Translations under genes and position numbers: made by a program | Shown: piece after piece, positions 1 to 64,000 of the stretch | Layout: each line of letters begins with the position of its first letter | Position numbering within the stretch: position 1 is the stretch's first letter | NCBI GenBank assembly: GCA_017303975.1 | Contig: JAFLBG010000016.1 | Location: 1-64,000 of the forward strand | Source: Bacteroidota bacterium | GTDB lineage: Bacteria; Bacteroidota; Bacteroidia; JAFLBG01 | Direction: 5' to 3' | DNA length: 64,000 nt | The notes under the pieces: generated by a model | What the model was told of the DNA's origin: nothing | The model's input: the letters and a program-made list of their open reading frames with translations, nothing else | The model's database searches: none

Positions 1-2610
1 AATCCTGTATTGCTAGCGACAGTTCTGCCATTACTCCATAAATATGTATAAGGCGAAGTTCCATTTGTTACAGAAGCAGTGGCTACACCGTTTGAATTTC
101 CAGTACAAGAGGAAACGCTGTTTGTAATAGTTGCGATAGGTGCTCCGGATCCTGTAATGGTAGTGCTTACAACAGCTGTACAGCCAATATTGTCAGTAAC
201 TGTTAACGTATAAACACCTGTAGAAAGTCCTGTATTACTAGCGACAGTTCTGCCATTGCTCCACAAGTAGGTATAGGGCGAAGTTCCATTTGTTACAGAA
301 GCAGTGGCTACACCGTTTGAATTTCCAGTACAAGAGGACACGCTATTTGTAATAGTTGCGATAGGTGCTCCAGAACCTGTAATGGTAGTGCTTAAAACAG
401 CTGTACAGCCAATGTTGTCAGTAACTGTTAATGTGTAAACTCCCGTGGAAAGGCCAGTATTACTAGAGACAGTTCTGCCATTGCTCCATAAATAGATATA
501 AGGCGAAGTTCCGTTTGTTACAGAAGCAGTGGCTACACCATTTGAATTACCAGTGCACGAAGAAACACTATTTGTAATAGTGGCGATAGGCGCTCCGGAA
601 CCAGTAATGGTAGTAGTAGTGACAGTAGTACACCCTCTAGTATCAGTAACTGTTAATGTGTAAACTCCCGTGGAAAGACCAGTATTACTAGCGACAGTTC
701 TGCCATTGCTCCACAAGTAGGTATAGGGCGAAGTTCCATTTGTTACAGAAGCAGTAGCTACACCGTTCGAATTACCCGTACATGATGATACACTATTTGT
801 AATAGTAGCGACAGGTGCTCCAGAACCTGTAATGGTAGTACTTACAACAGCTGTGCAACCAATGTTGTCAGTCACTGTTACTGTGTAAACTCCAGTGCTC
901 AATCCTGTATTGCTAGCAACAGTTCTGCCATTGCTCCACAAGTAGGTATAGGGCGAAGTTCCATTTGTTACAGAAGCAGTAGCTACACCGTTCGAATTAC
1001 CCGTACATGATGATACACTATTTGTAATAGTTGCAATAGGCGCTCCGGATCCTGTAATGGTAGTGCTTACAACAGCTGTACAACCAATATTGTCAGTAAC
1101 TGTTAATGTGTAAACTCCCGTGGAAAGTCCTGTATTGCTAGCGACCGTTCTGCCATTGCTCCACAAGTACGTATAAGGCGAAGTTCCATTTGTTACAGAA
1201 GCAGTCGCCACACCATTTGTTGTGCCGGTACAAGAAGAAACGCTATTTGTAATAGTTGCGATAGGCGCTCCGGAACCGGTAATGGTAGTACTTACAACAG
1301 CTGTACAGCCAATATTATCAGTAACTGTTAATGTATAAACCCCGGTAGAAAGGCCTGTGTTGCTAGCGACCGTTCTGCCATTGCTCCACAAGTAGGTATA
1401 AGGCGATGTTCCATTTGTTATAGAAGCTGTTGCGACCCCGTTCGAATTACCTGTACATGATGATACACTATTTGTAATAGTAGCCACAGGTGCTCCGGAA
1501 CCTGTAATAGTAGTAGTGGCTACAGTAGTACACCCTCTATTATCAGTAACAGTTAATGTGAAAACGCCAGTGCTCAATCCTGTATTGCTAGCAACAGTTC
1601 TACCATTACTCCACAAATAGGTGAAAGGTGATGTTCCGTTTGTGATAGAAGCAGTAGCTACACCATTTGTTGTTCCGATACACGAAGACACACTGTTTGT
1701 AATTGTTGCGATAGGTGCTCCGGATCCTGTAATGGTAGAGCTTACAACAGCTGTACAACCAATATTGTCAGTAACTGTTAATGTATAAACCCCGGTAGAA
1801 AGCCCTGTGTTGCTAGCGACAGTCCTGCCATTGCTCCACAAATAGGTATAAGGCGAGGTTCCATTCGTTACAGAAGCTGTTGCCACACCATTTGTTGTTC
1901 CTGTACAGGAAGACACACTGTTGGTGATAGTAGCGATAGGTGCTCCAGAACCAATTATGGTAGTGCTTGCAACAGATGAACACCCTCTGTCGTCAGTAAC
2001 TGTTAATGTATAAACCCCGGTGGAAAGCCCTGTATTGCTAGCAACAGTTCTACCATTACTCCACAAATAGGTGTAAGGTGATGTTCCGTTTGTTACAGAT
2101 GCAGTAGCTACACCGTTGGTTGTGCCGGTACATGAGGACACACTGTTTGTAATTGTTGCGACAGGGCCGCCAGATATAGTAATAGTGGTACTTTCTGTGG
2201 TTGTACAACCTCTATTGTCAGTAACTGTTATTGTGTAAACCCCAGTAGAAAGCCCTGTATTGCTAGCAACCGTTCTACCGTTACTCCATAAATAAGTATA
2301 GGGAGATGTTCCATTTGTAATGGAGACTGTGGCAACGCCATTGCTAGTGCCGGTGCAGGAAGTTACTGTGTTGGTAATACTCGCAATTGGCCCTCCGGAT
2401 GCTGTAATTGTTGTAGACTTTGTTGCTGAGCAGCCCCTGCTGTCATTAACGGTAATAGAATACACCCCTAATGATAATCCTGAATTCCCTGAAGTTGTAA
2501 CGCCATTGCTCCATAGATACGTGTAAGGCGGTGTGCCACCTGTAACCGAAGCAGTCGCAACGCCATTGGTAGTTCCTGTGCAGGCTGAAACACTATTGGT
2601 AATTGTAACT
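1..2610 (-). repeat. Tandem array of 225-bp coding repeats (at least 12 units)
   Basis: The anchor CCA(C/T)AA or CCATA of the WSNG-coding motif recurs at 36, 261, 486, 711, 936, 1161, 1386, 1611, 1836, 2061, 2286 and 2511, exactly 225 bp (75 codons) apart with no length change. Units nearest the window start are almost identical at DNA level, and units toward 2500 are more diverged. Variant blocks (NSNG versus TTNG loops; DNIG versus D-x-RG turns) are mixed between units. The array may extend past position 1. Such arrays are prone to unequal exchange and to assembly collapse. Confidence 0.95.
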
Positions 2611-3224
2611 GCAACTATGTCGGGTTGACTTACTACACCCGACCCACTAATACCTGCCACACAGTTGCTAGAATCGCGTACCACAACAGTGTAGGTGCCA
2701 GCGGTTAAATTAGTAATACAGTGGGTGGTAAAGGACCCAGAGGCAGTAACTCCATTGCTCCAACTATAGCTATAAGGAGGGGTGCCACCACTAACATTCA
2801 CACAAGCGGTTCCATTAGTACCCCCAAAGCAGGGAGTTACAGAAGTGGTAACAATAGTTGCTGTTAGTGCTGCTAATAGCTGAAGTTGAATATTCTTTTT
2901 TACTGATTTGCCATATTTATTTGTTACAACAACAAAATGATTTAATTCTGAAGTAGAAAGTAATGCTTTTGCGGTTGTTGCCCCATTACTCCACTTGTAA
3001 GTAAATGGACCATCCGATCCAACTACTCCTGTTACCGCCATTTCTGCAACAACTGTACAGGCTGGTACCGGCACTGCATTCGCAACATTAACCGTGAAAT
3101 TTCCGTTGTCGTTTTTTGAATCGGGAATCCATTTGTAAGATGATTTGTCTTGAGCAATTGCGCTGCCTATAAATGCTAAAAAGCAAGATAATGTTACAAG
3201 AAATATGCGTGTAATGTTATTCAT
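1..3224 (-). CDS. Giant SprB-repeat secreted protein, N-terminal part (partial, continues beyond window start)
   Basis: The reading frame starts at the ATG complementary to 3222-3224 and stays open to the window edge, about 1,074 codons; I followed the frame through every repeat unit without a stop. The N-terminus has a signal peptide ending in an AIAQ-like site. Next come two divergent repeats whose WSNG motifs lie near 2991 and 2760, then twelve units of exactly 75 residues. Each unit has the SprB-type pattern: SPYTYLWSNG, a YTLTVTD strand and two cysteines, one before a TG(N/T)(S/T)NG loop and one in a GC(T/S) step. SprB repeats are known from secreted T9SS surface adhesins and gliding proteins. 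An adhesin or filament-like surface role is inferred. The C-terminal sorting domain is outside the window, so export by T9SS is not shown directly. Confidence 0.9.
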   Translation of the reverse strand, partial: MNNITRIFLVTLSCFLAFIGSAIAQDKSSYKWIPDSKNDNGNFTVNVANAVPVPACTVVAEMAVTGVVGSDGPFTYKWSNGATTAKALLSTSELNHFVVVTNKYGKSVKKNIQLQLLAALTATIVTTSVTPCFGGTNGTACVNVSGGTPPYSYSWSNGVTASGSFTTHCITNLTAGTYTVVVRDSSNCVAGISGSGVVSQPDIVAVTITNSVSACTGTTNGVATASVTGGTPPYTYLWSNGVTTSGNSGLSLGVYSITVNDSRGCSATKSTTITASGGPIASITNTVTSCTGTSNGVATVSITNGTSPYTYLWSNGRTVASNTGLSTGVYTITVTDNRGCTTTESTTITISGGPVATITNSVSSCTGTTNGVATASVTNGTSPYTYLWSNGRTVASNTGLSTGVYTLTVTDDRGCSSVASTTIIGSGAPIATITNSVSSCTGTTNGVATASVTNGTSPYTYLWSNGRTVASNTGLSTGVYTLTVTDNIGCTAVVSSTITGSGAPIATITNSVSSCIGTTNGVATASITNGTSPFTYLWSNGRTVASNTGLSTGVFTLTVTDNRGCTTVATTTITGSGAPVATITNSVSSCTGNSNGVATASITNGTSPYTYLWSNGRTVASNTGLSTGVYTLTVTDNIGCTAVVSTTITGSGAPIATITNSVSSCTGTTNGVATASVTNGTSPYTYLWSNGRTVASNTGLSTGVYTLTVTDNIGCTAVVSTTITGSGAPIATITNSVSSCTGNSNGVATASVTNGTSPYTYLWSNGRTVASNTGLSTGVYTVTVTDNIGCTAVVSTTITGSGAPVATITNSVSSCTGNSNGVATASVTNGTSPYTYLWSNGRTVASNTGLSTGVYTLTVTDTRGCTTVTTTTITGSGAPIATITNSVSSCTGNSNGVATASVTNGTSPYIYLWSNGRTVSSNTGLSTGVYTLTVTDNIGCTAVLSTTITGSGAPIATITNSVSSCTGNSNGVATASVTNGTSPYTYLWSNGRTVASNTGLSTGVYTLTVTDNIGCTAVVSTTITGSGAPIATITNSVSSCTGNSNGVATASVTNGTSPYTYLWSNGRTVASNTG

Positions 3225-42959: not shown

Positions 42960-44624
42960 ATGAAAAAAATTTACTTATCTCTTTTCGGATTATTTGCGTT
43001 GAGTATTAATGCTCAGGTATGGAATTGGGCTGCTCGGTTAAATGATAATACCGCAACGCCTGTATGGGCTTTCGATGTTGCTATTGATAATAGTGGCAAT
43101 ATATTTACTACCAATAATTTTTATGGTAATAATTCCATTTGCGCTTCCACTTTTACTTGTAGTGGAAATAAAGATATTTTTCTTTCAAAATACAGCAGCT
43201 CTGGTTCCTGCCTTTGGACTGTGCAAGCAGGTACTGCTAACACAGCCTCTAGCTTAGATGATCAAACAACAGGTATAGGTGTTGATAATAGCGGTAATGT
43301 TTATATAGCAGGAATAATAAAAGGAGTTGCTACTTTTGGTGATAGTACAGTTTCGTCTGTGCCAACTACATCAGAGGATATTTTTTTAGCAAAGTATAAT
43401 TCGAGCGGGGTATTGCAATGGGTGCGTTCTTTTGGTTCTTCCAATCCTGATTTGGTTAACGACTTGGTGGTAGATAGTAATGGAGATTGTTATTTAACGG
43501 GCAACATGGCAGGGATATTGGGTGCGACCAATTATTCTTTCGGTAGCTCAACATTTACGGGAACAGGCTTTTTAGCAAAATTTGACTCCAATGGAAATAA
43601 ACAATGGATTAAGAATGCCGCATATCAAGGTAATACACTGGCAATTGACAATTCGAGCAATGTATATATTGCAGGTAACAGTACAACCTTTTCGATGGGA
43701 AGTTTGGATAAAATTGATACAATTATAGTTCCTACATTGGGTACCGCATTAATGAATGATATTTATATAGCGAAATTTAATTCTTCTGGTAGTGCTTTGT
43801 GGGCTGAGGTGATGGGAGGTACTGCTACGGATAATCCCATTTCAATTGATGTGGATGCCACAGGTAATATAGCTTTAACCGGCACATTTACCGGTAGTGC
43901 TATGTTTGGTGTTAATACATTTTCTTCTTCTGTTGCAGCAACTAATGCATTTGTTGCCAAACTTAGCACTAATGGATCTGTTTTGTGGGCTACACAAGTA
44001 ATTACCGCTATTGGAGCAACAATTGACGAAGTATTATTTGATGGCTCTGGTAATATTTTATTTACAGGCGGAATGAATTCCGGGTCAAATATAGGAGGTT
44101 CATATCCGTCTCCTAATGGTTCAATAAGCCCTTTGTATCTTGCAAAGTTTGATGGCTCAGGAAGCTTAACTGCCTATGAACATAATGTAGGTTTTTGTTA
44201 TGGAAGAGCATTGGCAAAAAATGGAAGCAATTTCGTTTTAAGTGGTAGTTTAAATGGTTCGAATTGCACTTTTGGTTCTTCAACTATTAGCACATCAGGT
44301 TTTAATACCACATGTTTTCTTGCGAGCTTTAATCCATCAAATATGACTTTATCGCCTTCTGCAATCAGTGCAAATGATAAGCCAATTGAATTGATTTTAG
44401 CGCCAAATCCAACAAATGGAATGATGAGTTTGCAATTTGCAACGTCTTATTCAGAAGGAAGAAGTATTTCAGTTTATAATCTAGTTGGAGAGAAATTGAT
44501 AGATAATATTTCTTTTGATGCACATGTATCGCTTGATTTGTCAAGTCTTTCAAGTAGTATTTATTTATTAAATATTCAGGAGGGTGATAAATCTGTTTCT
44601 AAACGGGTGGTAGTTCAACACTAG
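42960..44624 (+). CDS. SBBP-repeat (beta-propeller) protein with T9SS type A sorting domain
   Basis: The 554-residue protein has a signal peptide (LFALSINAQ). Repeated units follow of the form DNSGNVYIAG, then FLAKYNSSGVLQWVR or FIAKFNSNGS-LW, spaced about 55-60 residues, typical of SBBP beta-propeller repeats. The C-terminal sorting domain begins near residue 478 (LAPNPTNGMMSLQF) and ends KRVVVQH. It is a predicted secreted surface protein of unknown function. A symmetrical terminator follows. Confidence 0.9.
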   Translation: MKKIYLSLFGLFALSINAQVWNWAARLNDNTATPVWAFDVAIDNSGNIFTTNNFYGNNSICASTFTCSGNKDIFLSKYSSSGSCLWTVQAGTANTASSLDDQTTGIGVDNSGNVYIAGIIKGVATFGDSTVSSVPTTSEDIFLAKYNSSGVLQWVRSFGSSNPDLVNDLVVDSNGDCYLTGNMAGILGATNYSFGSSTFTGTGFLAKFDSNGNKQWIKNAAYQGNTLAIDNSSNVYIAGNSTTFSMGSLDKIDTIIVPTLGTALMNDIYIAKFNSSGSALWAEVMGGTATDNPISIDVDATGNIALTGTFTGSAMFGVNTFSSSVAATNAFVAKLSTNGSVLWATQVITAIGATIDEVLFDGSGNILFTGGMNSGSNIGGSYPSPNGSISPLYLAKFDGSGSLTAYEHNVGFCYGRALAKNGSNFVLSGSLNGSNCTFGSSTISTSGFNTTCFLASFNPSNMTLSPSAISANDKPIELILAPNPTNGMMSLQFATSYSEGRSISVYNLVGEKLIDNISFDAHVSLDLSSLSSSIYLLNIQEGDKSVSKRVVVQH

Positions 44625-58405: not shown

Positions 58406-61400
58406 ATGTTTATAAAGCAACATTTACGCTTAGTTGTCTTTTTTCTGCTATTAATAAATTCACTAGTTTATAGAAGCTCTATTGCTGCAACTCAAACAAA
58501 TTCATTAACAATTACTGCAAGTAAAACTAATTTGTGCAATGGGGGTTCTACTTCTTACAAAGCCATTACAAAGGGGGCTTATAATGGAAATATTTCTTAT
58601 AAGTGGTATTTTCCGGGAGGTTCTCCTTCTTTTTCTACATTAAAGAATCCCTCAGTTTCTTATAGCACAAGTGGCAGTTATCCTGTAAAGCTTGTTGTCA
58701 CTGCAAAAAATATTACTGATTCAATTTCTTACAATTCGTTTATAACCGTAAAGTCACCCATTGCTGCCATGTCAGCAACTGTTGCTTTGCCAGTTTGCGT
58801 TGTAAGTTCACAAATGCTTGAGCCTTCTGTAACTGGTGGTTTCGGTTCTTATAAATATAGTTGGAATACAGGTGCTACTACAAAAGCAGTAAGTAATCTA
58901 AAACAAGGGACTTATTCTTTGGTAGTAACAGATGCAAATAATTGCTCCACACAAACCTCTGTAATGCTAAAAGCAGCAGGCGATTTAACGGTAACGGTTA
59001 CAACCACCAGTTTGTCGTGCAGCGGTGGAAATAATGCAATAGCCTGTGTTAATGCAAGTGGTGGAGTTGGTCCTTATTCTTATACCTGGAGTACAGGAGA
59101 AACAACACAATGTATTAGTGGGCTTGGGCCTGGCACTTATTCTGTTAGTGTAATTGATGGGGGCGCAAATTGTCATATCCCTGCTGTTGCGGTAATTTTA
59201 CCCGTAAGTACGTTGGGGCTATCGCTTACAACTAATTCGGTAGTTTGTTTTAGTCAAAGTAATGGTTCGGTTTCTGCAAATCCTTCCGGAGGAAGTGGTG
59301 GATATACCTATGTTTGGAGCAATCTAGCTACGAGTTCAACTATTAGTGGAGTTCCAATAGGTGTTTATTCTGTAACCGTTAACGATGGAGGTGGTTGTAG
59401 TGCCATAGCTACAAGTACTGTCAATGGACCTACTCAACTTAATTCTACAATTTGGGCAAATACAGTAGCTTGTGGAGCTGCCGTCACAACCGCATCTGTT
59501 GCTGTTTCTGGAGGTGTTGGCTCTTATACATACAACTGGAGTAATGGTGCTACTGGTAATCCGATAAATAATGCCCCTGTTGGTGTTGTATCCGTTACAG
59601 TGCTAGATGCGAATAGTTGTAGTATTACAAAATCTGTAACGGTTACATCAAATTCACAAATAACAGTTAACATAACCACTACAAGTGTTTCTTGTAATGG
59701 TGGTAGTACCGGAAATGCCTCTGTTCAAGCATCCGGAGGAAGTGGCAACTATACGTATGTTTGGAGTAATTTATCTACAGGTGCATCCATTACTAATATT
59801 TTAGCCGGAGTTTATTCTGTAACAGTTGATGATGGTAGTGGATGTGTAATTTTTGCTAGTGCATCTGTTGCAGAGCCTATCGCTTTAAGTGCACTAATTT
59901 CGGCTACCAATATTGGTTGTACAGGCTCAGGCACTGGTGCAGCGTTGGCTACTGTTAGCGGTGGCTCAGGTAGCTACACCTATTTGTGGAGCACCAACGC
60001 TACTTTACAACAAGTAAATAATTTAACTGTGGGTACTTACTCTGTAGTTGTAACAGATGGTAATCTTTGTTCGATTTCTAATACAGTTTCCATAACCCAA
60101 AATAGTGCGCTAACTGCAAGTGTAACTTCTGTAAATGCAAATTGCAATCAAGCGGATGGCTCTGCGCTGGTTATAGTATCTGGAGGTTCAGGAGCATATA
60201 CATATTTGTGGAGTAATGCACAATTCAATGCACAAGCTACCTCATTAGTAGCGGGTCTTTACACTGTAACAGTTACCGAAGGTGTTAATTGTTTGGTTCA
60301 AGCCACCGTTAATGTGTCAAATAATTCAGGCGTTTCAGCACAACTTGTTTCTACTAATTCTGTTTCATGTTACAGTGGTACAAATGGTAGCATAGAGGTT
60401 GTGGGCACCGGTGGAAGTATTCCGTATCAATATTCGTGGAACACCTCCTCGAATAATCCGCAGCTGTCGGCACTATCCGCAGGGGTTTATACTTGTACGG
60501 TAAAAGATAATCAGGGTTGTGTCGATTTTATTTCTGTTACAATTTCTGAACCACCCTTGTTAACAACTACTATCAATTCAACATCTGTTACCTGTAATGG
60601 AGGTTCTGACGGAACAGCGGATGTCTTTGTGTTGGGCGGAACTCCTTCATACTCTTATCAATGGAGCAACGGTTTTTCGCTCTTGCAAATAGCTGGTTTA
60701 ACAACAGGAACATACTCCGTAATTATTGCTGATGCCAATGGATGTACAAGTACATCTACAGTGTTGATTTCTGAGCCACCGCTTTTGACGGTAACTATCT
60801 CGGGAAATAGTATGGTATGCAGCGGGCAACAGACAAGCATTTCTGCAACGGCATCAGGAGGAAGCCCTACTTATATGTATAGTTGGAATAATTCATTCAC
60901 AGGGCAAAATTTACAGCTAACTGTAACAGGCCTAACAACACTTACTGTTGTAGCAATTGATAATAACGGGTGTACTGCTTTTTCAACAAGTGTGATAGAT
61001 AATTTTTCTGTAACACCGGTTTCTTTTACAGCTAACGATACCAGCGGATGTCCGGAACATTGTGTTGTTTTTTCTATTGTAAACGCTTTTGCTCAAAATG
61101 TGAATTGGGATTTTGGAGATGGCAATACTTCTGCTTTGAACAATCCAACACACTGTTACTCTGCCTCAGGCGCATACGCTGTTTCGCTTACTTTAATTGA
61201 TGCAAACGGATGCGCTGCTACACAAACGAAAAATAATTATATACAAGTTGTTGGAAAGCCTACCGCCAATTTTACTGCAACTCCTTTAACGACAAGTATT
61301 TTAGATCCACTTGTTCAATTTACAGATAATAGTGTTGGTGCTGCTACCTGGTTGTGGAGCTTTGGGGATGGGAATCATTCTACTTCTACAAATCAGAATA

Positions 61401-61792
61401 CTACTTTTTCGTACGATCAAATTGGAGATTATAATGTAACACTGCTTGTTGCAAACTCCGATGGTTGTATGGATAGTACAACCTTAACGATTTCTATAAC
61501 GCCAGATTTTTTGTTGTACATTCCCAATACCTTTACTCCGAATGATGACGGTAGAAACGATGTTTTTTTACCTTACGGTGTAGGAGTAAGTTTTGAAAAA
61601 TATGTTTTGGAAATATTTGATAGGTGGGGCAATTTGATTTGGGAAACTACTCAGTGGGGCGAAGGCTGGGATGGAAGAGCTAACGGAGGAGCAGATGTTT
61701 CGCAACAAGAAGTGTACGTGTATAAAATATCAGCGAAAGATGTTTTGGGCTACAAGCATTCATTTGTAGGAAATGTAAATCTTATAAAATAG
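58406..61792 (+). CDS. Large SprB/PKD-repeat protein with gliding-type (T9SS type B) C-terminal domain
   Basis: The 1,128-residue protein has a signal peptide (LINSLVYRSSIAA) and an N-terminal PKD-like domain (KWYFPGGSPSFSTLKNPS). About ten SprB-type repeats follow (YSVTVNDGGGCS- and SGGSGSYTYLWS-like), with diverged DNA sequence. Two PKD domains lie near residues 890-1035 (VNWDFGDGNTSALNNPTH and TWLWSFGDGNHS). The last 85 residues are a gliding-associated C-terminal domain (IPNTFTPNDDGRNDVFLP, then IFDRWGNLIWE). It is a predicted T9SS-exported surface or adhesion protein, with an older repeat array than the one at 1-2610. Confidence 0.92.
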   Translation: MFIKQHLRLVVFFLLLINSLVYRSSIAATQTNSLTITASKTNLCNGGSTSYKAITKGAYNGNISYKWYFPGGSPSFSTLKNPSVSYSTSGSYPVKLVVTAKNITDSISYNSFITVKSPIAAMSATVALPVCVVSSQMLEPSVTGGFGSYKYSWNTGATTKAVSNLKQGTYSLVVTDANNCSTQTSVMLKAAGDLTVTVTTTSLSCSGGNNAIACVNASGGVGPYSYTWSTGETTQCISGLGPGTYSVSVIDGGANCHIPAVAVILPVSTLGLSLTTNSVVCFSQSNGSVSANPSGGSGGYTYVWSNLATSSTISGVPIGVYSVTVNDGGGCSAIATSTVNGPTQLNSTIWANTVACGAAVTTASVAVSGGVGSYTYNWSNGATGNPINNAPVGVVSVTVLDANSCSITKSVTVTSNSQITVNITTTSVSCNGGSTGNASVQASGGSGNYTYVWSNLSTGASITNILAGVYSVTVDDGSGCVIFASASVAEPIALSALISATNIGCTGSGTGAALATVSGGSGSYTYLWSTNATLQQVNNLTVGTYSVVVTDGNLCSISNTVSITQNSALTASVTSVNANCNQADGSALVIVSGGSGAYTYLWSNAQFNAQATSLVAGLYTVTVTEGVNCLVQATVNVSNNSGVSAQLVSTNSVSCYSGTNGSIEVVGTGGSIPYQYSWNTSSNNPQLSALSAGVYTCTVKDNQGCVDFISVTISEPPLLTTTINSTSVTCNGGSDGTADVFVLGGTPSYSYQWSNGFSLLQIAGLTTGTYSVIIADANGCTSTSTVLISEPPLLTVTISGNSMVCSGQQTSISATASGGSPTYMYSWNNSFTGQNLQLTVTGLTTLTVVAIDNNGCTAFSTSVIDNFSVTPVSFTANDTSGCPEHCVVFSIVNAFAQNVNWDFGDGNTSALNNPTHCYSASGAYAVSLTLIDANGCAATQTKNNYIQVVGKPTANFTATPLTTSILDPLVQFTDNSVGAATWLWSFGDGNHSTSTNQNTTFSYDQIGDYNVTLLVANSDGCMDSTTLTISITPDFLLYIPNTFTPNDDGRNDVFLPYGVGVSFEKYVLEIFDRWGNLIWETTQWGEGWDGRANGGADVSQQEVYVYKISAKDVLGYKHSFVGNVNLIK

Positions 61793-61915: not shown

Positions 61916-61923
61916 TATATTTG
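61916..61923 (+). promoter_or_regulatory. -7 promoter box for the NamZ gene
   Basis: TATATTTG, a full match to TAnnTTTG, 15 nt before the ATG at 61939. Its last three bases form the in-frame TTG at 61921, which should not be taken as a start. TTTG at 61900-61903 is too close to be a standard -33 element. Confidence 0.55.
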
Positions 61924-61938
61924 TGTTTACAGAAAATT

Positions 61939-63138
61939 ATGCGCATTCTAATTTCAAAGAAGAGATTTCTTTTTTTATTACTAGCTCAATTAAATATTCT
62001 TGTTTTTGCACAACAGCGTAAAACAGTTACAGAAATTTTATCCGGAGCAGATAATACCGAATCGTATTTACAACTAATTCGCAATTCGGCTGTAGCCATT
62101 GTTACTAATCAAACCGGAGTAATTGGAAATAAAACCCATATAGTAGATAGTTTACTTACAAGAGGGATTAATGTAAAAAAAATATTTGCTCCGGAACACG
62201 GATTCCGGGGTGTAGCAGATGCCGGAGAGCATTTAAAAAGTGGAAAGGATAAGCGCACCGGACTTCCAATTGTTTCTTTATACGGGAAAAACTACAAACC
62301 TAATGCAGCAGATTTACAGGATGTAGATGTGGTTTTGTTTGACATACAAGATGTCGGAGCTCGATTTTATACCTATATCTCCACATTACACTATGTTATG
62401 GAGGCATGTGCCGAAAACAATAAGCAACTTATTGTATTAGACAGACCAAACCCGAATGGTTTTTATATTGATGGTCCTGTGTTGGAAGAAAAGAATAAAT
62501 CGTTTGTTGGCATGCATCCGGTACCTATTGTTTATGGTATGACAATTGGAGAATATGCCAAAATGATTAATGGCGAAGAATGGCTGGCAAATAAAATGAA
62601 ATGTAATTTGATAGTCATACCACTCACTAATTATTCTCATTCCGATTTATATGAACTGCCCATAAAGCCCTCTCCTAATTTGCCAAATAATACTGCAATT
62701 TATTTATATCCCTCATTGGCTCTGTTTGAAGGTACTAATGTAAGTGTTGGTCGTGGTACAAACTTTCCATTTCAAGTAGTTGGTAAACCGGGTTTAAAGA
62801 AAATGAAATTTAGCTTTACTCCGATTTCTACCCAAGGAGCAAAAGAACCCATGCATAAAAACATAAAATGCTACGGGTATGATTTACGTAGCGATACAAC
62901 TGCTGTAAGCTCAAGAAAAATAAATTTATTTTGGTTGATGGAAAGCTACAAGTTAAGCGTAGAAAAGGAAAAATATTTTAATAATTATTTTAATTCTTTA
63001 GCAGGAAACGCAACTTTAAAGCAACAAGTAATAGATGGAGTATCCGAAGAGAATATAAGAAAATCGTGGGAGGGAGATCTGCAAAAATTCAAACAAATAC
63101 GAAAAAAGTATTTGTTGTATGATGATTTTAAGGAGTAA
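61939..63138 (+). CDS. NamZ-type (DUF1343) exo-beta-N-acetylmuramidase
   Basis: The ATG at 61939 gives 399 residues with a signal peptide (LLLAQLNILVFAQ). The family signatures are clear: SAVAIVTNQTGVIGNKTHIVD near residue 48, FAPEHGFRGVADAGEH near residue 86, YGKNYKPNAADLQDVDVVLFDIQDVGARFYTY, RPNPNGFYIDGPVLE, and EGTNVSVGRGTNFPFQVVG. DUF1343 proteins were identified as exo-lytic N-acetylmuramidases (NamZ) that release terminal MurNAc from peptidoglycan fragments for recycling. The start chosen avoids a TTG lying within the -7 box. A strong terminator follows. Confidence 0.9.
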   Translation: MRILISKKRFLFLLLAQLNILVFAQQRKTVTEILSGADNTESYLQLIRNSAVAIVTNQTGVIGNKTHIVDSLLTRGINVKKIFAPEHGFRGVADAGEHLKSGKDKRTGLPIVSLYGKNYKPNAADLQDVDVVLFDIQDVGARFYTYISTLHYVMEACAENNKQLIVLDRPNPNGFYIDGPVLEEKNKSFVGMHPVPIVYGMTIGEYAKMINGEEWLANKMKCNLIVIPLTNYSHSDLYELPIKPSPNLPNNTAIYLYPSLALFEGTNVSVGRGTNFPFQVVGKPGLKKMKFSFTPISTQGAKEPMHKNIKCYGYDLRSDTTAVSSRKINLFWLMESYKLSVEKEKYFNNYFNSLAGNATLKQQVIDGVSEENIRKSWEGDLQKFKQIRKKYLLYDDFKE

Positions 63139-63236: not shown

Positions 63237-64000
63237 TTACTGCTTTACAATTTTCTTTGTAATAACATTGTCGTTATTGTTTATCTGTATGTAATACACA
63301 CCATTTGTATGGTTGTTTAAATCAATTTCTAATTTATTAGAAACAGAATTTACCACAGAATACACAACTTGTCCTTTTATATCAAACACAGTAACAGTAG
63401 CGTTGTTTAAATTCTCTATAGAATTTAAAGTAAACATTCCTGAAGTTGGGTTTGGATATAACGAGAAGCCGTTCGCATCAGTATCTTCAATCGACATAGG
63501 ATCAGAAGCGGAGGCGCAAATAGTGAAAGTAGTAGTAGCTGGGGCTGCAGAATAATAGTCGTACACACGAACGAAATATGTTTGGCCTATTGTAAGTCCT
63601 GTGCCTACTAGGTACTCAATTCCACCAAGATTAAAATCATTGTCTTCGCACTTAATCTCTGTATTGGATGCGCATGATGAATAAAGAGAAATTACCGCAT
63701 CAAAACTAGACGAGCCAGTTACTTTTATGCCATTTGTAGCAGCTGTTGCAACAAATGAGTACCATACATCATCAGTGGCTGTTCCTGTACATGCTGTTGG
63801 GTTAGATAGTGTTGCACCTGCTACATCCCCAACTGTAGGAGATGTGCAAGCACTACCAACAGAAAGTGCAATAGCTCCAGAGCACTCATCATTAGATGGA
63901 GCAGGCGGTGGTGGTGGTGCTTGATAAACACAAACATCAAATGTTCCTCTTACAGAAGTTCCTAAATAAAACACCGCCATATAATATGTCTGACCAATTG
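63237..64000 (-). CDS. T9SS type A sorting-domain protein, C-terminal part (partial)
   Basis: The frame stays open past the window end: codons upstream of the Met at 63980 read IGQTYY, matching the IGQTYF of the next domain copy, so that Met is internal. Visible are the end of one domain, a Pro-rich linker (APPPPPAPSND), and a second beta domain (ECSGAIALSVGSACTSPTVGDV ... GLTIGQTYFVRVYDYYSA). A type A sorting domain starts near LYPNPTSGMFTLNS and ends KKIVKQ. It is a secreted multidomain protein, probably with tandem copies of the same domain. Function is unknown. Confidence 0.9.
   Translation of the reverse strand, partial: IGQTYYMAVFYLGTSVRGTFDVCVYQAPPPPPAPSNDECSGAIALSVGSACTSPTVGDVAGATLSNPTACTGTATDDVWYSFVATAATNGIKVTGSSSFDAVISLYSSCASNTEIKCEDNDFNLGGIEYLVGTGLTIGQTYFVRVYDYYSAAPATTTFTICASASDPMSIEDTDANGFSLYPNPTSGMFTLNSIENLNNATVTVFDIKGQVVYSVVNSVSNKLEIDLNNHTNGVYYIQINNNDNVITKKIVKQ

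Follow-up and report, generated by a model that had tools for sequence, protein, structure and literature searches.

Among the described systems nearest to the gene considered here is SprB of Flavobacterium johnsoniae, a mobile gliding adhesin that is anchored by SprF, and a route to the surface through a type B sorting domain has been described both for SprB and for PG1035 (PMC9143113). A second point of reference is the Periscope concept, under which surface proteins vary in length through long similar repeats (PMC8201768, PMC9704523), and a third is the gliding motility-associated repeat protein of F. psychrophilum, which has between 35 and 88 units across isolates (PMC8400371). On the evolution of SprB repeats themselves, our literature search (within the terms used) found no papers.

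Our window is the whole stretch of 64,000 nucleotides that was analysed, positions 1 to 64,000 of contig JAFLBG010000016.1 (here C16) from a Bacteroidota bacterium, and it opens inside a tandem array of SprB repeats. Like F. johnsoniae SprB, the protein under study is large, repetitive and ends in a type B C-terminal domain, and its genome also encodes SprA (2668 bits), GldJ and 13 PorP/SprF proteins. Unlike F. johnsoniae sprB, the gene has no sprF next to it: of the 13 PorP/SprF genes, none is on C16 and none on C32, the contig that probably carries the rest of the gene, and the adjacent sprF expected of an SprB orthologue is missing here. In the same genome (G000), a 3353-residue SprB-repeat frame at C1:158922-168926 does have a PorP/SprF gene downstream; these two are the likeliest SprB-SprF pair, and that frame is a better candidate than our array gene for the gliding adhesin.

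The likeness to Periscope proteins is of another kind, since here too a predicted surface protein has long folded domains that are highly alike and stand in tandem, an arrangement prone to intragenic recombination; the differences are that anchoring is predicted to go through the type IX secretion system (T9SS) and that this array is known from one genome. With the F. psychrophilum protein, in a comparison that does not presume its units to be SprB repeats, our gene shares a repetitive make-up, a putative link to gliding, a place in the Bacteroidota and the need for long reads to resolve it, but there the unit number is seen to vary among isolates, whereas here we have a single fragmented genome. 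We are fairly confident that the locus encodes a T9SS type B SprB-domain protein, and that its array was shaped by tandem duplication, short-tract exchange and purifying selection.

Gene layout and the break between two contigs

The assembly consists of 70 contigs (3.4 Mb), and the feature begins at base 1 of the window because C16 itself begins there. The gene is read on the minus strand from 3224 to 1, where the contig edge cuts it, with all units in one frame, and the SprB repeat profile (PF13573) is matched by P0001 at 296 bits and by P0003 at 269 bits, against a cut-off of 28. The tandem array at 3-2318 has a strict period of 225, with 83% matches and 0% indels. A sequence-only reading of this DNA had counted twelve units of exactly 75 codons; the strict, indel-free period is confirmed, but from 2612 down to 3 there are 11 complete 75-codon units, and of the twelfth only a 45-codon piece lies in the window.

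When the whole genome was searched with one unit, the other close copies all fell on C16 or at the extreme end of C32, which runs out at base 43888 within an array of the same sort. The C32 half supplies 1049 residues in frame, including three further full units and the C-terminus, and after some diverged SprB domains it has a bacterial Ig domain and, last, a type B sorting domain (TIGR04131, 46.1 bits against a cut-off of 35; CHU_C, 82 bits against 27). We infer that C16 and C32 carry two halves of one gene, because the type of unit and the reading frame agree and 127 bp are shared; units are labelled A on the former and B on the latter. So joined, the gene would encode at least 2140 residues, with n in the gap of 47+225n bp not fixed by the assembly, and would hold at least 15 units in 75-codon register (A1-A11, A12/B1, B2-B4). 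The product would run from a signal peptide through diverged SprB domains, the 15 or more units, further diverged SprB domains and the Ig domain to the T9SS type B sorting domain.

The length of the shared 127 bp suggests that a de Bruijn assembly with k=127 was halted by the repeat. Because C16 and C32 both end within the array, short repeat contigs were probably dropped at the break, and n may exceed zero. The copy number of the array is not readable from this assembly, since the assembly is broken there.

Table 1. Features of the SprB-repeat gene (positions in the window unless another contig is named)
Feature	Position	Strand	Basis or remark
5' part of SprB-repeat gene, 1074 codons in window	1..3224	-	open frame; Pfam SprB E 2.3e-90; whole-genome placement
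Probable 3' part of SprB-repeat gene	contig C32 (L019 10889-7738)	-	frame and C-terminal domain
N-terminal signal peptide, putative (MNNITRIFLVTLSCFLAFIGSAIAQ)	3150..3224	-	translation read by eye, no predictor
Diverged SprB domain, 83 codons, ahead of array	2613..2861	-	best Pfam SprB stretch here
Edge units A1, A2, in 75-codon register; only 62-75% DNA identity to other C16 units	2163..2612	-	unit comparison
Core array: A3-A11, nine complete 75-codon units, plus the opening 45 codons of A12; 76-94% DNA identity, mosaic	3..2162	-	unit comparison
127-bp stretch at A7/A8 junction, exactly the last 127 bases of C32	952..1078	.	marks assembly break
Contig edge within unit A12; 47+225n bp absent before C32 resumes in unit B1	1..2	.	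unit register on both contigs; contig ends

Given the join of C16 to C32, the product carries a type B sorting domain and belongs with the predicted T9SS type B cargo; it is most likely exported through the T9SS, of which the genome encodes the translocon SprA, and held at the surface by that domain, and it would be exposed on the outer surface. The model of a single unit (pLDDT 80) shows a beta fold with six strands; a model of three units, with a mean pLDDT of 43, was discarded. Among the solved structures closest to the one-unit model are PKD/Ig-like domains and portions of GhpA, the Grappling hook protein A of Aureispira (PDB 9flw, 9fly), all of them weak matches at E 0.024 or worse. Parts of GhpA do resemble the one-unit fold, with a TM-score of 0.61 by query length, but that fold match is itself weak (E 0.024) and GhpA is absent from the sequence hits; the unit sequence profile matches phage neck and decoration proteins. 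Ahead of the repeats, Pfam profiles recognised no separate ligand-binding domain family, a result that applies to families with such profiles, as an unrecognised one is possible. The array itself is most likely a stalk.

Divergence and exchange among the units

Among A3-A11 the units are 76-91% identical in DNA, with higher values for A11/A12 (94%) and A8/B2 (99%), whereas for the units at the edges (A1, A2 and B4) identity to other units is mostly 61-76%. Stretches of three of these 75-residue units are 79-94% identical, or 89-94% in the core. Identity to the core consensus drops toward each end, both edges of the array being diverged, as is expected if edge units exchange least. In pairwise comparisons of A3-A11 and B2, the share of synonymous sites that differ (pS) has a median of 0.44 and a range of 0.05-0.66, and 37.5% of fourfold sites differ; pN is 0.046 and pN/pS about 0.1, so most of the protein sameness between units is due to purifying selection.

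These values contradict the earlier claim that the units are nearly identical in DNA, synonymous sites included, since identity among the core units is 76-94% and, at the median, 44% of their synonymous sites differ. The same reading had correctly described the SprB units at 58406-61792 as diverged in DNA (median identity 46%), and had set their synonymous divergence as its own yardstick: at 0.69, near saturation, it exceeds the 0.44 of the array, which is yet far from zero. This matters for the idea of a strong, recent and array-wide homogenisation that left near-identical DNA units and a protein actively length-variable between cells. Such a history would sit well with the 99% and 94% pairs, with an assembly broken at the array and with the 35 to 88 units, by isolate, of the gliding-associated protein in F. 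psychrophilum (PMC8400371), but it would have removed the synonymous differences that persist between core units, and we think it unlikely.

Recombination between units, on the other hand, is well supported. In a compatibility test on sixty informative columns from A3-A11 and B2, mean site incompatibility was 0.28 within 15 bp versus 0.74 at 150-220 bp, and the observed value was matched in none of 2000 column shuffles, whether with 30 or 50 bp windows and likewise with third positions alone. Site compatibility decays with distance at z = -9.9, whereas in clonal simulations, which used a tree from A3-A11 and had 32 informative sites versus 55 in the data, z averaged 0.16 and never fell below -2.6. 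Shared runs exceed chance in the pairs A8/A9, A9/A11, A9/B2, A5/B2 and A5/A8, and exact tracts of 40-125 bp join otherwise diverged units, the longest being 113 bp within C16 (where they are mostly 30-75 bp) and 125 bp between the contigs. For example, A8 and A9 have 113 exact bases in common and then diverge, and the 3' part of A9 is nearer to A5. Unit similarity showed no significant fall with inter-unit distance, and neighbours were not significantly more alike, so there is no visible sign of simple stepwise exchange from one unit to the next.

Homogenisation is best described as patchy and for the most part old, a few events being recent. The earlier proposal of recent or ongoing homogenisation survives in part: exchange passes formal tests and A8/B2 stands at 99%, but recent homogenisation is limited to a few unit pairs or part-units, because the premise of synonymous near-identity was false.

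Could the mosaic instead have been made by the assembler, through mis-joining of similar short reads or through a mixture of strains in a metagenome-derived genome? The local assembly was stressed, since the contig break that stops the array is marked by an exact 127-bp copy, and the order or number of units may be wrong. However, if k was 127, a mis-join needs about 127 shared bases, and the inter-unit tracts of C16 are at most 113 bp, so an assembler with that k would not be expected to make them in this way; unrelated genomes, among them G046 with its large contigs, also have arrays with similar mosaics. We consider an artefact of this sort very improbable. Least probable of all is an old duplication held by purifying selection, its units never having exchanged sequence since the array formed, for although low pN against high pS is the pattern of selection on separately evolving copies, an exchange-free history is opposed by the distance-dependent incompatibility and the long shared runs, as well as by one distant pair (A8/B2) that is 99% identical while others differ.

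On the reading that we prefer, that of duplication, short-tract exchange and purifying selection in a type B protein, the product would be a large T9SS type B cargo of at least 2140 residues, most likely a stalk-like protein of the outer surface made of tandem SprB (Ig/PKD-like) domains. The middle of the gene would have expanded as one 75-codon domain was duplicated in tandem until there were at least 15 units, and these would later have traded short tracts repeatedly, by gene conversion or unequal crossing-over within the array and least at its edges, while purifying selection would have preserved the sequence of each domain. Homologous recombination would be the agent of the exchange and, by analogy with the variable repeat proteins introduced above, the number of units may vary between cells or strains.

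SprB arrays elsewhere in the genome and in the class

Of the SprB genes sampled in this genome, the array under study is the most alike among the long ones. Part of it is far more alike than the others, in which median DNA identity is 44-55% and pS is 0.55-0.74, close to saturation. A constant period, considered as a sign of homogenisation, is rejected in that role on account of the SprB gene on contig C45: its 15 units keep 75-77 residues each at about 50% DNA identity, so the regular spacing comes with the domain and is not special to this array.

There is a second, short homogeneous SprB array at C3:55648-56343 (L164 2649-3344), with about three 234-bp copies that give 93% matches in TRF and 88% identity between the two full copies. 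The genome holds at least 150 SprB-repeat matches across many long frames, in addition to its 13 PorP/SprF genes. Contigs C24 and C30 also open inside SprB-repeat frames (L177 C24:1-4000 and L178 C30:1-4000), so that further surface-protein genes are cut by contig ends, and these two SprB ends have no exact overlap with the other SprB loci that were fetched. Within the window, the second SprB gene is followed by a gene for a NamZ exo-beta-N-acetylmuramidase (61921-63138) and then by a frame (63237-63998) that carries a type A sorting domain of the T9SS.

SprB tandem arrays were found in other families of the class, with periods of 222 bp (G046), 228 bp (G004), 231 bp (G022) and 225 bp (G024); their median pS is 0.19-0.54, and several give a recombination signal. 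G046 has several 222-bp arrays with 84-93% identity (L181 1-2175, C11; L183 8642-14426, C22), and one of these begins where its contig begins, so that here too the assembly breaks within an array. Breaks at repeats have been documented in Bacteroidia drafts (PMC5771137). Among 80 related contigs with the neighbouring hydrolase gene, only L156, from a Flavobacteriales MAG (UBA1993), had a long and clearly similar SprB-repeat gene nearby. That gene (L156 12785-17926) was rejected as an orthologue, as it encodes a different, metalloprotease-like protein (HExxH by eye) that carries SprB-like repeats.

Our array is thus one more case of a known type, the SprB array, with comparable arrays in other Bacteroidia. 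One general lesson is that sameness of repeats in protein does not amount to homogenisation of their DNA unless synonymous sites have been counted. As a tentative and quite possibly mistaken generalisation, SprB arrays across the Bacteroidia might be a T9SS-anchored counterpart of Periscope proteins, amplified repeatedly and independently, constrained in protein, reshuffled in short tracts and varying in length within species. If they are length-variable, many draft genomes would conceal the variation, since arrays of this sort are where assemblies of short reads break; and if they change length in populations, the Bacteroidota could tune the reach of their surface adhesins.
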